This document shows, one piece after another, positions 42,927 through 49,085 of a stretch of 64,000 nucleotides of DNA. Position numbers and translations under genes: made by a program. Under the pieces are notes generated by a model. The model had not been told where the DNA came from. It was given only the letters and a program-made list of their open reading frames with translations, and searched no databases. The DNA lies in the NCBI RefSeq assembly GCF_038022665.1, contig NZ_CP150629.1, forward strand, positions 1,780,480 to 1,844,479, given 5' to 3'. Numbering within the stretch: position 1 is the first letter of the stretch; the number at the start of each line of letters is the position of its first letter. Origin of the DNA: Methanolobus sp. WCC4. Lineage in GTDB: Archaea; Halobacteriota; Methanosarcinia; Methanosarcinales; Methanosarcinaceae.

Positions 42927-42960
42927 AATTGCGGACTCTAGCACAACTCAACTTGAATAG

Positions 42961-42970
42961 TTTAATATAT
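42961..42970 (+). promoter_or_regulatory. TATA box of the first CobD-like gene
   Basis: TTTAATATAT at 42961-42970 predicts transcription from about 42990, at or just after the ATG at 42988. The mRNA is therefore probably leaderless (TTG at 42991) or has a leader of a few bases (GTG at 43000). A similar box serves the second copy (44515-44524). Confidence 0.6.
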
Positions 42971-42987
42971 CTCCTCTGCGTAACCAC

Positions 42988-44490
42988 ATGTTGATAAGTG
43001 TGCACCGAAAAAATTTCCCACTTCATTTGAAGCCTTATTTGCCTGCACTGCAGGCAAAGAAACACAGCGAAAGGGCTTATGATCTTGCTGAAAAATTAAA
43101 CATTCCAGAATCAGATATTCTTGATTTCAGCACAGATCTAAATCCTCTCGGCACACCTTTCGATCATTCAGGTGAAAAGGACGATATTGAACAAATTATC
43201 CTTACTTCGGTCGATAAGATCGGCCAGTATCCTGATAACAGATATCTTGAGCTCAGAAATGCTGCTGCAGCTTTCATTGGACGCGGGACCACCTTTGAGA
43301 ATATAGTTCCCGGGAACGGTTCATGTGAACTTGTACGTCTTGCGGTCCAGTCGGTTGTAAATGAAGAGGATCTTGTGATAGTTCCCTCTCCTTCATCAGG
43401 TCAATACAGACATCTGTCTGAGGTTTTCGGTGCCCATGTACATTCCTTTACCACAAAGGAAATGTTAACGCTCCCGAAGATGACACTGAAACGGGCAAAG
43501 GTCGTTATCATCCAGAATCCCAATGACCCTACAGGTGAATTGATATCATATAAGTTCCTTGCAAACCTTGCACGTAACTGTGCAGAACACGGCACTCTTC
43601 TCATAGTTGATGAATCATCTATAGAACTTTCCGATCCGGGTATGAGTGTTGCTGGACTTGTACATGATAATGATCATCTTCTGGTTATACGTTCGGTCTC
43701 CGGTATAGCTTCCATGCCGGGTATTCGACTGGCATATGCTATTGCATCCCGACCTGTGGCTGATATCCTGAATTCTGCCCGCCTTTCATGGAATATAGGC
43801 GCATCAGAGGAGGCTATCGGAATTGCATTTCTCTCTATGGGGAATGGTGAGAACTCGGAATATATCTCAAGGTCACGGAATCTGATCAAAAAAGAAAGGG
43901 ACTACATTAGCAGGCGTCTTTCCAGGATATATGGTTTCGATCCTTTAAAGAGCAGTGCACATTATCTTCTGGTTGATATAAATGACCTGTTCCTGGATTC
44001 AGAAAGGCTTACTGAAGGACTTGCTTCCCATGGGATACTTATCCGTGACTGTAGTGACCTTTTCAATGCAGGGAAAAGGTATGTGAGAATATCTGTCAGA
44101 CCCCGGAACGAATTCAAGAGATTGATCCGCACCCTTGATGATGTCTTTGCTGAGCTCAGCAAGGAGGATGCAAGGGAAAAGCTTGAGGAGACCATTGAAC
44201 AGGGTTCCTCTGCTTCAGCCGGAAGAGGCACCTGTGAGTACTATCCATGTCATTTCACAGGACAGGATTGTACATTCTGCTTCTGTCCTTTCTATGCATG
44301 TGAAGATGAAAGGACAGGTGGAAAGTGGATCGAGAGTACCACGGGTGGACAGGTATGGAGCTGCGAACATTGCACTTTATTGCATAGACCAAAAGTTGCC
44401 AGGGGCGTGCTTGACGCACTTATGGCAGACGGAGACACTGACGATAATATAAGGAGGGCATGGAAGGAAATTATTGTGCCGTTGCTTTGA
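42988..44490 (+). CDS. CobD-like PLP-fold protein lacking the catalytic lysine, with a Cys-rich C-terminal domain (copy 1)
   Basis: About 500 aa in two parts. Residues to about 400 are an aminotransferase-fold CobD/HisC-like domain with 'YPDNRYLELRNAAA', 'PGNGSCELVRLA' and 'NPNDPTGEL'. The Schiff-base block, which in copy 2 is 'RSLTKAFAIPGIR', here reads 'RSVSGIASMPGIR': Gly (codon 43702-43704) replaces Lys. 'DEAFIEL' is also changed to 'DESSIEL'. The Cys-rich domain (about 412-470) keeps all eight Cys seen in copy 2. So it cannot work as a normal PLP decarboxylase. The start may be GTG 43000 by alignment with copy 2. Promoter and TATA are its own. Confidence 0.88.
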   Translation: MLISVHRKNFPLHLKPYLPALQAKKHSERAYDLAEKLNIPESDILDFSTDLNPLGTPFDHSGEKDDIEQIILTSVDKIGQYPDNRYLELRNAAAAFIGRGTTFENIVPGNGSCELVRLAVQSVVNEEDLVIVPSPSSGQYRHLSEVFGAHVHSFTTKEMLTLPKMTLKRAKVVIIQNPNDPTGELISYKFLANLARNCAEHGTLLIVDESSIELSDPGMSVAGLVHDNDHLLVIRSVSGIASMPGIRLAYAIASRPVADILNSARLSWNIGASEEAIGIAFLSMGNGENSEYISRSRNLIKKERDYISRRLSRIYGFDPLKSSAHYLLVDINDLFLDSERLTEGLASHGILIRDCSDLFNAGKRYVRISVRPRNEFKRLIRTLDDVFAELSKEDAREKLEETIEQGSSASAGRGTCEYYPCHFTGQDCTFCFCPFYACEDERTGGKWIESTTGGQVWSCEHCTLLHRPKVARGVLDALMADGDTDDNIRRAWKEIIVPLL

Positions 44491-44514
44491 TCCTGTTTTG
44501 GATCAATTGAACAG

Positions 44515-44524
44515 CTTAATATAT
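44515..44524 (+). promoter_or_regulatory. TATA box of the second CobD-like gene
   Basis: CTTAATATAT (44515-44524) predicts a start near 44546, almost the same spacing to the start codons as in copy 1, so the duplication seems to have included the promoter. Confidence 0.55.
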
Positions 44525-44543
44525 TTCCTGTTAACTACATGCT

Positions 44544-46046
44544 TTGATCACTGTGACTGAACAAAGATTACCGCTCCCGATAAAGAAATATCTTCAAAGC
44601 CTTGAGCCATGTGCCCACGGCGGACTGATAAGAAAAAGTTCCCAGAAGTACGGAATACCTGAATCAGAGATGCTGGATGCAAGTGCAAGTCTGAATCCTT
44701 TTGGAACACCTTTTGAGCAGGATGAACCGGAACTCGATATGCAGGAACTTCTCAGGAAAGGACTCGAGAAACTGGAACAGTATCCTGATAACCGATATCT
44801 TGAATACAGGAATGCAGCAGCAGATTTTGTGGGTATGGGAACAACGTATGAGAATATAATCCCGGGCAATGGTTCAACTGAGATCATAAGGCTTGTTGCA
44901 GAATGTGTCATCTCTGAAGGTGACATCGTGCTCATCCCAAAACCAACGTTCAGTGAATATGAGATGCAGTGTAAGGTTATGGGAGCACAGATAAAGTACA
45001 TCGACCAGGAAGATATCCTCGATCTCGATGGCAAGCTTCTTGATGAAGCAAAGATGATCTTTGTATGTAATCCAAACAATCCAACGGGAAAACTGCTCTT
45101 AAAGGAGCAGGTTGAAAGGATCGCTGAGAAATGTGCTGAGCATAAGACCATTCTTTTCCTTGACGAGGCTTTCATCGAACTGGCAGATCCGGAGCAGAGT
45201 GTTGCTTATCTTGTTGAGGATAATGAGTATCTTTTCATCCAGCGCTCCCTGACAAAGGCCTTCGCTATTCCGGGAATAAGGATGGGATTCGGAGTCACCT
45301 CTAAGGAGTTTGCCTCTGTCCTTAATAATGCAAGGCTGTCATGGAACATGGGATGCATTGCCGATACTGTTGCCACGGCCCTTCTGAGAATGGAAGGTGG
45401 GGTGAACAGTAAATATCTGGTAGACTCCAGGGATCTCATCGCAAAGGAGCGTGATTTCCTCATGGAGAAACTCTCAAGAAGGGGCTTTAAACCTATTGAG
45501 AGTACTGTGAATTACATTTTTGTTGACATTTCCGAGCTTTCCATGGACTCAACTGAACTTGCAGAACGTATGGCCTCACATGGAGTGCTGATCCGTGATT
45601 GCAGCTCCTTCCAGGATATTGGCGGAGATTACATCAGGATAGCTATACGTACAAGGGAAGAGAATGAGCGCATTGCATCCACTGTCCGCGAGGCTATAGC
45701 TGAATGGGGCAGGGAACAGGCCAGGATGCAACTGGAAGATAACCTGAAAGCTGCTGCAGACTGTGGTCGCATGGGCAGCAATACTGATTGCCCTTATTAT
45801 TCATGTCACTTTGAAGGTCAGGACTGTACTTTCTGTTTCTGTCCCTTCTACCCGTGCAAGGACTCCCGGACAGGTGGTGAATGGATAGAGAGTTCCAGTG
45901 GAGGAGAGGTATGGAGCTGTCTAAATTGTAAGATCGTTCATGATGAACATGTTGTGGATGGACTGTTATCAGTGTTCACAGCTGAAGGACTTAACAAAGA
46001 AAGTATAAAGAAAGCATGGGATAGTGTTATGGAGAAGAACCTATGA
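44544..46046 (+). CDS. cobD: L-threonine-O-3-phosphate decarboxylase (CobD) with a Cys-rich C-terminal domain (copy 2)
   Basis: Makes (R)-1-aminopropan-2-ol phosphate, the linker of the cobamide nucleotide loop. The PLP site is intact: 'RSLTKAFAIPGIR' with Lys codon at 45255-45257, 'NPNNPTGKL' and 'DEAFIEL'. The C-terminal 'C.YYSCHFEGQDCTFCFCPFYPC' region and 'WSCLNC' hold eight Cys, as in the Methanosarcina CobD reported to have both threonine kinase and decarboxylase activity (recalled). The start is TTG 44544 or GTG 44553. cbiB overlaps its stop by 4 bp. Confidence 0.92.
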   Translation: MITVTEQRLPLPIKKYLQSLEPCAHGGLIRKSSQKYGIPESEMLDASASLNPFGTPFEQDEPELDMQELLRKGLEKLEQYPDNRYLEYRNAAADFVGMGTTYENIIPGNGSTEIIRLVAECVISEGDIVLIPKPTFSEYEMQCKVMGAQIKYIDQEDILDLDGKLLDEAKMIFVCNPNNPTGKLLLKEQVERIAEKCAEHKTILFLDEAFIELADPEQSVAYLVEDNEYLFIQRSLTKAFAIPGIRMGFGVTSKEFASVLNNARLSWNMGCIADTVATALLRMEGGVNSKYLVDSRDLIAKERDFLMEKLSRRGFKPIESTVNYIFVDISELSMDSTELAERMASHGVLIRDCSSFQDIGGDYIRIAIRTREENERIASTVREAIAEWGREQARMQLEDNLKAAADCGRMGSNTDCPYYSCHFEGQDCTFCFCPFYPCKDSRTGGEWIESSSGGEVWSCLNCKIVHDEHVVDGLLSVFTAEGLNKESIKKAWDSVMEKNL

Positions 46047-47032
46047 TACTGCCGGTACAGGCAGATGCAATGGATCTTGTGATAGTACTGTTGCTGGCCT
46101 ATGCCCTTGATCTGATATTCGATGAGCCGCCGGCCTCGGTCCATCCGGTTGTCTGGATGGGAAAGCTTATCGCTTTTTTCAAAAGGAATGTTCCGGCCAC
46201 TAACAGGAAGCTCTATGGGATATTCATGGGGCTTGTCACCATACTGTTCGGTGTTTCCATAGCATTTATTGTACTGTACATATTCGGCCTTGAAGTAATA
46301 CCCTCTCCAATACGCTACTTTGTTGCTGCTTATTTCCTTAAGGCAACATTTGCTATACGCTGTCTCTATGGTGCTGCTACTGAGGTCAGGACCGAACTGG
46401 ATGCCGGCCGACTTGATGAAGCGAGACAGAAGCTTTCCATGTATGTGAGCAGGGATACCTCAAAGCTGGATGAAGGACATGTTTCCTCGGCTATCATTGA
46501 AACGACATCAGAGAACTATGTGGATGGAATACTCACTCCTCTGTTGTTCTATGCATGTTTCGGACCTTACGGATTGATAGCTGCCTACGTTTTCAAGGCC
46601 ACAAGCACCCTTGATTCCATGGTTGGGTATATGGATGAACGCCACAGGGATATGGGATGGTTCTCTGCAAAGCTGGATGATGTACTCAACTGGCTTCCAG
46701 CACGTATTTCCGTATTTTTACTCTCTGCAGCAACACTGGTCCTTGATATCTTTTACCGAAAGGTGAAGGTATTGGATTTCAGGAATGCTTTCAGGAGTGG
46801 ATTCGGAGATGGGATGAAAACCCCGTCCCCGAACTCAGGATATCCTATGGCATCAATAGCCGGTGCACTTAAAGTAAAACTTGACAAACCGAACACCTAT
46901 GTGCTTGGTGAAGGATATAATCATCCTGCATCAGAAGACATCAAACTTACAAGCTGGATAATAATGATAGCGTCCCTATTAGCTATCGTGGTATGTCTGT
47001 TCATAATTGCGGCGTATCATCCAGGATATTGA
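46043..47032 (+). CDS. cbiB: Adenosylcobinamide-phosphate synthase CbiB
   Basis: An integral membrane enzyme that joins adenosylcobyric acid to aminopropanol phosphate. The 329-aa chain has 'LDLIFDEPPASVHPVVWMG' at the start, 'SRDTSKLDEGHVSSAIIETT' in the middle, 'STLDSMVGYMDERHRDMG' and 'DGMKTPSPNSGYPMA', the diagnostic CbiB/CobD(Bacterial) blocks. GGAG lies eight bases before the ATG, which overlaps the cobD stop by 4 bp. Confidence 0.96.
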   Translation: MILPVQADAMDLVIVLLLAYALDLIFDEPPASVHPVVWMGKLIAFFKRNVPATNRKLYGIFMGLVTILFGVSIAFIVLYIFGLEVIPSPIRYFVAAYFLKATFAIRCLYGAATEVRTELDAGRLDEARQKLSMYVSRDTSKLDEGHVSSAIIETTSENYVDGILTPLLFYACFGPYGLIAAYVFKATSTLDSMVGYMDERHRDMGWFSAKLDDVLNWLPARISVFLLSAATLVLDIFYRKVKVLDFRNAFRSGFGDGMKTPSPNSGYPMASIAGALKVKLDKPNTYVLGEGYNHPASEDIKLTSWIIMIASLLAIVVCLFIIAAYHPGY

Positions 47033-47053
47033 TATTTACAATTCCCCGAAGTG

Positions 47054-47647
47054 ATGGCAATGAAATTATCAGATATCGAATCAGAAGACCTTAAGAAAGA
47101 CCAGTCAAAGGAACTGGAAGGTGAGATCACCAGGGATATAATCGAGATCCTTGAAGAAGAAGGAATAACGGTTCAGATGCTTGTTGATGCTGCACTGGAA
47201 CTATATGCCCCTCATCCGGGTATAGAGACCAGGGAGCTTGCGGAGGCAAAGTTCCTTCAGGAGCTTGACATCGCCATCTCCGATCCGAACCTCTGTTTAC
47301 TGATATATTCAGGAGTATTGCTGGAAAAAGAAGGACGTGAGGGAAGACTACCTAACATCAGCAAGAGTTCCTATGAAAAGGACCTGACATTCATAATTGC
47401 CGATGAGGTTCTCGGAACGAGTATATCCAGATACATCAGTGGTGACAAAGGTACGTTCGAGTTCGTACGTTTTGATAAACAGAAGCCAGGTATCCTTGCA
47501 GAGCTCGGTCCTTTCATGGATGATGTCATCGGGGGACTTATTGGTGGCGTATCTGCAAGCATGTATACAAGGGCGATGGCAGAGGCAGCTGCCCTGTCGA
47601 AGAAACCTGAGAAAAAAGAACCTGAAAGTGATGTGATCGCAGGATGA
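47054..47647 (+). CDS. cobZ: Alpha-ribazole phosphatase CobZ (PgpA-like)
   Basis: Removes the 5'-phosphate from alpha-ribazole or cobalamin 5'-phosphate as the last step. It was described in Methanosarcina mazei as a non-orthologous replacement for CobC. The 198-aa protein has a charged N-terminus (about 1-45) and a PgpA-like core with 'ALELYAPHPGIETRELAEAK' and 'IADEVLGTSISRYISG'. Candidate starts are ATG 47054 or 47060. Its stop overlaps the cobS start by 4 bp, supporting the function. Confidence 0.88.
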   Translation: MAMKLSDIESEDLKKDQSKELEGEITRDIIEILEEEGITVQMLVDAALELYAPHPGIETRELAEAKFLQELDIAISDPNLCLLIYSGVLLEKEGREGRLPNISKSSYEKDLTFIIADEVLGTSISRYISGDKGTFEFVRFDKQKPGILAELGPFMDDVIGGLIGGVSASMYTRAMAEAAALSKKPEKKEPESDVIAG

Positions 47648-48456
47648 CCGGATTCTTATTAGCCCTTAAGTCAAGTTTCGGTTTCCTTTCAACAATTCCT
47701 GTTGGAATTACCATGGAAGGACTGGATGAGTTTTTCAAAAGAACATATCTGCATCAGGTCGTTGGTATCGTCCTTGGTCTGATGATGGGTGCAGTGGCAT
47801 ATCTGCTCATTAGCTTTTTGCCTGTATACATAAGTGCGGTCCTTATGATCGCTTTCATCTACTATATTACCGGTCTCAATCACCTGGACGGTGTGGCCGA
47901 CCTTGGTGACGGACTGACCGCACATGGTTCTGTTGAGAAGAAACTGAAGGCGCTCAAGGACATGTCTCTTGGTATCGGCGGAGTTGCCTATGCTGCTCTT
48001 ATTATCCTTGCACTCTACGCTTCCCTCATTTCATTGTATGATGAAGCAAGTGTCCTGTATTCAACAACTGCAGACCTGGCGCGTATTTTCTTCTTTGCTA
48101 TGTTCGTATCGGAAGTAAGTGCCATGCAATCCATGCTGACTGTAGCTGCATTCGGGAAGTCCATCCACGAGGGTCTGGGTTCCATACTCGTGAACAATAC
48201 CACAGTACCTAAATACCTTATAGGTTTTGTAATTGGTAGCATTGCCTGTGTTGGAGCATCAATGTACTTTGGTCTTGGAATATCAGGTATATTTGTTTTC
48301 CTGGCGGCAATTGTGGCAACGTTTGTGCTGCTTAATGTAAGTAACAGGCATTTTGGTGGTGTGAATGGTGATGTTATTGGTGCTTCCAACGAGTTTGGAA
48401 GGATAATAGCATTGATAACCGTCACACTGGTACTAATGTACGGAGGTATTGTTTGA
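47644..48456 (+). CDS. cobS: Adenosylcobinamide-GDP ribazoletransferase (cobalamin synthase) CobS
   Basis: A polytopic membrane enzyme joining AdoCbi-GDP and alpha-ribazole (phosphate). The 270-aa sequence shows 'FLSTIPVG', 'TGLNHLDGVADLGDGLTAHG' and 'IGGVAYAALIILALY', all CobS marks, with about seven hydrophobic segments. It overlaps cobZ and cobY by 4 bp on each side, i.e. the operon is tightly coupled. Confidence 0.96.
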   Translation: MTGFLLALKSSFGFLSTIPVGITMEGLDEFFKRTYLHQVVGIVLGLMMGAVAYLLISFLPVYISAVLMIAFIYYITGLNHLDGVADLGDGLTAHGSVEKKLKALKDMSLGIGGVAYAALIILALYASLISLYDEASVLYSTTADLARIFFFAMFVSEVSAMQSMLTVAAFGKSIHEGLGSILVNNTTVPKYLIGFVIGSIACVGASMYFGLGISGIFVFLAAIVATFVLLNVSNRHFGGVNGDVIGASNEFGRIIALITVTLVLMYGGIV

Positions 48457-49085
48457 AAGCTATTGTAATGGCTGGTGGACTTGGAAGCAGGCTTGGTATG
48501 GGGGAAAAACCCTGCGTCGAGGTATTAGGAAAACCTCTCATATCCTATGTATTGGAAACCCTGCAAGAAACCGAAAGTATAGATGAGATATTCGTTGCTG
48601 TGTCCCCTGCAACACCTGACACCGCATCTTATGTGGAAAAGGAATATGCAGGTGAGATACCGGTCATCCATACAGGTGGCGGTAATTACGTCGGTGATAT
48701 GGTATATGCAGTGAAAGTTGCCGGGATAACAGAGCCACTTATGGTCCTTATGGCCGACCTGCCACTTCTGAACCCTGATCTCCTCGAAAAGGTGATAGGG
48801 GAATATAAGGAGTGTGGCAAACCTGCTATGTCCATTTTCTCTCCTATCCATGTTTGTAAAGGTCTGGGCATCAGGCCGGACACCGTTTTCAACTGGGACG
48901 GGAAATTGATAGTACCCTCGGGCATCAACATACTTGATGGCAATGATGTGGAAAATGAACAGGAATACATCAGCCTTGTTCTGGATGATATGGAATTCGC
49001 TCTTAACATTAATACCCCGGAAGACCTTAAGAGATGCAAGGATATGCTTCTTGAGAAAGGACAACCGTCTGTTACAAACCAGTGA
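48453..49085 (+). CDS. cobY: GTP:adenosylcobinamide-phosphate guanylyltransferase CobY
   Basis: The archaeal enzyme that replaces the bacterial CobU and makes AdoCbi-GDP. The 210-aa nucleotidyltransferase starts 'MKAIVMAGGLGSRLGMGEKP' and has the usual 'LMADLPLL' block. The start is a TTG with GGAGGT seven bases before it, which overlaps the cobS stop. It closes the operon; a structured intergenic stretch follows. Confidence 0.94.
   Translation: MKAIVMAGGLGSRLGMGEKPCVEVLGKPLISYVLETLQETESIDEIFVAVSPATPDTASYVEKEYAGEIPVIHTGGGNYVGDMVYAVKVAGITEPLMVLMADLPLLNPDLLEKVIGEYKECGKPAMSIFSPIHVCKGLGIRPDTVFNWDGKLIVPSGINILDGNDVENEQEYISLVLDDMEFALNINTPEDLKRCKDMLLEKGQPSVTNQ

Follow-up and report, generated by a model that had tools for sequence, protein, structure and literature searches.

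The tandem CobD genes and their operon

The 64,000-nucleotide window analyzed here (NZ_CP150629.1, positions 1,780,480 to 1,844,479) belongs to the closed 2.85 Mb genome of Methanolobus sp. WCC4 and carries a tandem pair of CobD-like genes, encoding 500 amino acids (aa) each, at the head of an operon with the order copy1-copy2-cbiB-cobZ-cobS-cobY. All of these genes are on the plus strand. The upstream gene (copy 1, 42988..44490) encodes a CobD paralogue without the lysine that binds pyridoxal 5'-phosphate (PLP), while the downstream gene (copy 2, 44544..46046, with a TTG start) encodes a CobD with this residue, Lys238. Copy 1 has an aminotransferase I/II domain (residues 76-382) and a Cys-rich domain, PF04071 (residues 415-479; 44230..44424), the latter found in copy 2 at 45771..45980; judged by copy 1, the closest named relative is Methanolobus profundi (77%). 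Downstream are cbiB (adenosylcobinamide-phosphate synthase, 46043..47032, assigned by profile match and synteny), cobZ (alpha-ribazole phosphatase, 47051..47647) and cobS (cobamide synthase, 47644..48456), both assigned by profile match, and a gene for a cobY-like guanylyltransferase (48453..49085), which scores below the cut-offs of TIGR00454 and NF045495 and matches PF12804 (NTP_transf_3).

Copy 1 is preceded by a promoter-like element (42941..42985) in which a TATA-like sequence, TTTAATATAT (42961-42970), and its flanks are well conserved across Methanolobus. The first-pass annotation, made from the sequence alone, had credited copy 1 with a promoter of its own, and this conservation bears it out; a similar TATA-like element also lies upstream of copy 2 in this species (CTTAATATAT, 44515..44524), as in many others. 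The ATG at 42988 is replaced by CTG or another codon in most relatives, and the TTG at 42991, one codon on, is probably the conserved start, resembling the TTG of copy 2. No known regulatory RNA and no cobalamin riboswitch was found near the operon, the sole Rfam match being a sub-threshold long non-coding RNA.

Residues lost and kept in copy 1

The two copies align from end to end, with 221/499 identical positions (44%) and 335/499 positive ones, and the open reading frames (ORFs) lie where the first-pass annotation had placed two mutually alignable genes of about 500 aa. The contrast it drew at the Schiff-base site is likewise correct: this site reads RSVSGIASMPGIR in copy 1 (Gly239, codon GGT, 43702..43704) and RSLTKAFAIPGIR in copy 2 (Lys238, codon AAG, 45255..45257). 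The NCBI CobD model TIGR01140 (cut-off 290.55 bits) accepts copy 2 at 294.9 bits and rejects copy 1 at 220.6. Unable to form the internal aldimine, copy 1 would on residue grounds be excluded from decarboxylation by the standard mechanism.

Residues are numbered here as in copy 2, with Salmonella CobD equivalents taken from an alignment to PDB entry 1lc5; the roles given to aligned residues (PLP contact, ring stacking, partner subunit) are those usual in fold-type-I enzymes. Among 33 copy 1 orthologues, K238 (Salmonella K216), F136 (F108, ring stacking), A209 (Ser in 33/33) and C175 are retained in none, R342 in one, T237 in four, and S111 in 16. The change of DEAFIEL to DESSIEL that had been noticed in copy 1 is real (DESS for DEAF at 43609..43620, with Asp and Glu kept), and its first Ser is fixed in all 33. 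The NP..PTG block, which had been reported as kept, is present but altered, as it reads NPNDPTG in copy 1; its second Asn (N179, aligned to Asn157 of the Salmonella enzyme) has become Asp, as in 9/33 orthologues.

Positions kept in every copy 1 orthologue include D45, N51, Y80-P-D-N-R-Y85 (Salmonella Y56 and its neighbours), D207 (D185), E208, R234, S235, R264, W267, R365 (R337), and the entire set of Cys-rich ligands. These ligands, eight Cys (416, 421, 428, 431, 433, 438, 459, and 462) with His422 and His466, are intact in both copies, in agreement with the earlier description of a fully kept Cys-rich domain. The candidate partner-subunit positions YPDNRY, R264, W267, and N268 are conserved in 27/27 Methanolobus copy 1 sequences. 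When nine candidate interface positions are compared with the PLP-contact positions, with roles assigned by homology, mean retention is 1.00 against 0.41 in Methanolobus, 0.89 against 0.22 in a second genus with the same pair, 0.72 against 0.22 in the Lys-less CobDs of Methanohalophilus, and 0.17 against 0.11 in highly diverged third copies. The AlphaFold2 model of copy 1 keeps the CobD fold (mean predicted local distance difference test score, 84), and its top Foldseek matches are the Salmonella CobD entries 1lkc, 1lc8, 1lc7, and 1lc5. The Salmonella enzyme differs in having no Cys-rich domain, and copy 1, at 23% identity to it, differs in having no catalytic Lys.

Distribution and age of the pair

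A survey of 112 Methanosarcinaceae genomes for the CobD pair found a Lys-less gene followed by a Lys-bearing gene in 27/27 Methanolobus genomes and in six genomes of the second genus, which is probably Methanomethylovorans. Wherever the contig reaches, the pair lies upstream of cbiB-cobZ-cobS-cobY and downstream of AIM24 and phosphoesterase genes; the single exception is L119, where AIM24 and the phosphoesterase were not detected in the stretch examined. The Schiff-base position in the 33 copy 1 orthologues is Asn (24), His (6), Asp (1), Gly (1), or Arg (1), while Lys occupies it in 32/32 copy 2 sequences and in 88/88 other CobDs sampled (120/120). The frame of copy 1 is open in all 33 genomes, although in one metagenome-assembled genome (MAG) the protein is short by about 20 residues at the N terminus.

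Copy 1 and copy 2 form separate clades. Because of this, their 44% identity, and the lack of gene conversion between them, the copies are best read as old paralogues, not products of a recent tandem duplication. Gene conversion was considered as a cause of the conserved tail and rejected, since copy 1-copy 2 identity is 0.567 within genomes and 0.566 between them. The approximately unbiased (AU) test does not reject monophyly of the two copies (p = 0.18), so origin by duplication and origin by transfer of one copy are both possible.

Selection on the two domains

The ratio of nonsynonymous to synonymous substitution (dN/dS, omega) was taken from a codon model; Nei-Gojobori (NG86) dN/dS, computed on pairs whose dS did not exceed 2, yielded an almost identical order. 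For copy 1, omega in the catalytic and Cys-rich domains is 0.145 and 0.056 in the main Methanolobus clade, 0.150 and 0.078 in the second Methanolobus clade, and 0.188 and 0.052 in the second genus; the corresponding values for copy 2 are 0.071 and 0.086, 0.082 and 0.076, and 0.103 and 0.143, while single-copy CobD of Methanosarcina has 0.117 and 0.045. Within copy 1, then, the Cys-rich domain is the constrained one, while in copy 2 the two domains are level or their ratio is reversed. Relative to copy 2, the catalytic domain of copy 1 is looser and, for two clades out of three, its Cys-rich domain is tighter. Among species pairs of the main Methanolobus clade, copy 1 is the more divergent in the catalytic domain in 105/105 and the less divergent in the Cys-rich domain in 101/105; in the second clade its catalytic domain is the more divergent in 55/55, with the Cys-rich domains of both copies about equally constrained. 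The division of labour proposed in the first-pass annotation thus stands as far as the two domains are under opposite constraints, but one clade of the three shows the catalytic-domain side only. The Lys-less clade with low dN/dS that it had envisaged does exist, in two genera and 33 genomes, and an omega of about 0.15 indicates that copy 1 is maintained.

Other CobDs without the lysine

Two CobDs are found in 8/8 Methanohalophilus genomes (stretches L249-L256, each of about 14 kb). The cbiB operon holds a Lys-less one (Thr, Asp, Asn, or Tyr), and the Lys-bearing one lies apart, about 20-25 kb off where both are placed on one contig. IQ-TREE joins the Lys-less CobD to the downstream member of the tandem pair in Methanococcoides and in a related MAG (ultrafast bootstrap (UFB) 98), a placement with which its operon position agrees, and the Lys-bearing CobD to the upstream member (UFB 100). 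Loss of the lysine in Methanohalophilus was therefore probably independent of the loss in Methanolobus and the second genus. A single origin of all Lys-less copies, as grouped by FastTree, is contradicted by this placement, and monophyly of copy 1 with the Methanohalophilus Lys-less sequences is rejected (AU p = 0.018). A faster search did not reject monophyly of all three Lys-less kinds, third copies included (p = 0.09); two losses are thus better supported, with a third possible. Catalytic-domain omega in Methanohalophilus is low for the Lys-less CobD (0.21), though above that of its Lys-bearing partner (0.07).

The third copies are highly diverged Lys-less CobD-like proteins in two genomes, one of Methanolobus and one of the second genus (L257:5442-6887, minus strand; L258:5660-7168, plus strand), with most of the pocket gone and the Cys-rich domain intact. 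On L257 the third CobD has a CbiZ gene and a BtuF-like gene nearby. The eight Cys and two His of the Cys-rich domain, together with Trp492, are kept in 43/43 Lys-less proteins.

The Cys-rich domain outside CobD

Among 247 genomes of the phylum sampled for its settings, PF04071 occurs in three further contexts: fused to CbiZ (L259:826-1755, L279:871-1758), fused to glycerophosphodiester phosphodiesterase (GDPD; L293:4215-5255, minus strand, and L294:3956-4882, plus strand, both from a single family of the same class), and free, as a protein of some 120 aa. Free proteins at L290, L291, L292, and L298-L305 lie for the most part directly upstream of cbiB, often overlapping it; over the 20 free ORFs looked at, nine are just 5' of cbiB on the same strand, several with an overlap. 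One of these ORFs has a BtuF-type transporter gene on one side and a BtuC-type gene on the other, with cbiZ adjacent to these. The domain therefore has a place in cobamide salvage independent of CobD; the free forms 5' of cbiB and the CbiZ fusions share the Cys-rich domain and the pathway with copy 1 but have no CobD fold attached. A model of the Cys-rich domain alone (AlphaFold) has no fold match in the PDB with E below 1.

The Methanohalophilus loss, the third copies, and the free and CbiZ-fused forms of PF04071 are additions to the first-pass annotation, and they move the emphasis from a CobD without PLP to a Cys-rich module carried on a dead CobD.

A proposed role for copy 1

Four features point to a non-catalytic subunit with a Cys-rich module: the intact fold, the candidate interface positions kept in Methanolobus, the invariant tandem arrangement, and the change of constraint between domains. 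The reading favoured here, at a little under an even chance, is that copy 1 is a maintained pseudo-enzyme, a non-catalytic carrier of the Cys-rich module that would act as a partner of copy 2, of CbiB, or of both. Copy 1 would have lost PLP chemistry and been kept to hold this module, probably iron-binding, on a CobD-fold scaffold. In Methanolobus and the second genus it would most likely pair with copy 2, which would give the lysine and decarboxylate while copy 1 gave an intact Cys-rich domain and partner-subunit residues; the Cys-rich domain of copy 1 would then link the supply of aminopropanol-phosphate to CbiB, encoded by the next gene and responsible for the membrane step that uses this product. 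Metal binding, pairing of the copies, and contact with CbiB are all inferred. The pattern suggests that what still works is the tail rather than the old chemistry.

Several known systems offer parallels. The CobD of Methanosarcina mazei (MM2060) is reportedly an L-threonine kinase and L-threonine-phosphate decarboxylase with a metal-containing C-terminal domain. The two-domain architecture and the operon neighbours in Methanosarcina are the same, and copy 2 is of the MM2060 kind; copy 1 shares the C-terminal PF04071 with all its ligands but is without the PLP lysine and has lost several further PLP-contact positions. Methanosarcina also differs in having one CobD match in nearly all genomes sampled. 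A fold-type-I PLP paralogue without the lysine, kept beside a catalytic paralogue, is known from serine palmitoyltransferase, in which LCB1 (SPTLC1) has no PLP Lys and works with LCB2 (PMC3794620). The likeness extends to the presence of Lys-less and Lys-bearing paralogues together in all 33 Methanolobus and second-genus genomes, while the pathway is unrelated and pairing of the CobD copies is putative. LCB1 is not known to have a Cys-rich domain. As to contact with CbiB, the beta component of cobinamide synthesis in P. denitrificans consists of CobC and CobD, the decarboxylase and the CbiB homologue (PMC6249242), and there is a proposal for a membrane complex with CbiB and CobS as its anchors (PMC8092220).

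Several observations weigh against this reading. The catalytic domain of copy 1 is itself under purifying selection, which argues for a role beyond holding the tail. Just 29/55 species pairs of the second Methanolobus clade show copy 1 with the less divergent Cys-rich domain, and omega in Methanohalophilus, unlike that in Methanolobus, does not single out the Cys-rich domain. The remaining 11/20 free PF04071 ORFs do not adjoin cbiB in the stretch examined, and two PF04071 copies are fused to GDPD, an unrelated enzyme. With regard to pairing, the copy 1 model is of a monomer only, and the partner-subunit assignments (Tyr56* and others) are presumptive, being drawn by analogy from fold-type-I enzymes in general and not from coordinates. 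Several or most interface residues are lost in 6/8 Methanohalophilus Lys-less CobDs and in both third copies, so pairing cannot be the role common to all Lys-less copies; what they share may be a Cys-rich tail acting with CbiB.

A broader form of the proposal, which we hold possible though short of an even chance, is that PF04071 is a module in its own right, an iron protein working with CbiB late in cobamide assembly, for which CobD is just one carrier and dead CobDs have repeatedly been selected as dedicated carriers (in Methanolobus and its sister genus, in Methanohalophilus, and possibly in the third copies). Decarboxylase chemistry has been lost, apparently more than once, and the tail never, a separation of functions made by evolution itself. 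Lys-less copies allow direct tests, in methanogens that can be cultured, of what the tail does and of where the kinase resides, and two annotations of threonine-phosphate decarboxylase in such a genome do not mean two decarboxylases.

Alternative functions of copy 1

The main rival, to which perhaps one chance in four might be given, is that an ancestral, bifunctional archaeal CobD was split upon duplication, with copy 2 keeping the decarboxylase and copy 1 serving as the L-threonine kinase of the pathway. Titles cited in PMC9986279 report MM2060 to be bifunctional and to have metallocentres. The four GHMP kinases found in this genome (mevalonate, shikimate, pantoate-like, and beta-RFAP synthase) include none called PduX, and the equivalents of the Salmonella substrate-binding residues His8, Asn34, Asn298, Arg323, and Arg337 are 93-100% kept in Methanolobus copy 1. 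However, no kinase motif is visible in copy 1, and a split predicts residues common to copy 1 and the single-copy CobDs yet lost in copy 2, whereas copy 2 differs only at trivial positions such as L478 and P498. Methanohalophilus Lys-less copies score 0/8 for the His8 and Asn298 equivalents, the third copies lose Arg351 too, and the Cys-rich module is found without any CobD domain.

The kept substrate contacts of Methanolobus copy 1 would also suit a ligand-binding or metal- or redox-sensing regulator, one that would modulate copy 2 or transcription on binding L-threonine phosphate, aminopropanol-phosphate, or a corrinoid, with no chemistry of its own. This is rather improbable. The intact Cys-rich domain of copy 1 and its place as first gene of the operon, behind a conserved promoter element, fit such a function, but copy 1 has no DNA-binding domain, no known riboswitch or regulatory RNA is nearby, and the other Lys-less lineages lack the substrate contacts.

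There is little to recommend the idea that copy 1 uses PLP through another lysine, or binds PLP or pyridoxamine phosphate non-covalently, and catalyzes some reaction. The Asp at the pyridine-nitrogen position (D207, Asp208 of copy 1) is present in 33/33, Methanolobus keeps Arg247 in 27/27, and an intact aminotransferase fold is predicted; against this, the Phe136 ring-stacking position, Thr237, and Ala209 are lost in all or nearly all orthologues, the Schiff-base site varies freely (N, H, D, G, R), and no replacement Lys stands beside it in the motif rows displayed. Ordinary decay of copy 1 to a redundant, drifting relic is very unlikely, as the first-pass annotation had argued, and is largely refuted by conservation: although its catalytic domain has about twice the evolutionary rate of the copy 2 domain, omega is near 0.15, the frame stays open in close relatives and in the 33 genomes as a whole, omega in the Cys-rich domain is 0.05-0.08, and operon order and promoter element are conserved.

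Other arrangements of cobD in the family

Genome G029 (genus g9; L135, L136) has two distant Lys-bearing cobD genes, one of them without the remaining operon in the stretch examined. In one MAG of Methanococcoides, the downstream cobD is broken into two neighbouring frames (L124:6403-7883, minus strand). In Methanosalsum, cobY lies 5' of cobD, and in Methanococcoides (L128:6074-9923) two Lys-bearing cobD genes have cobY between them, and the operon ends in another cobY.

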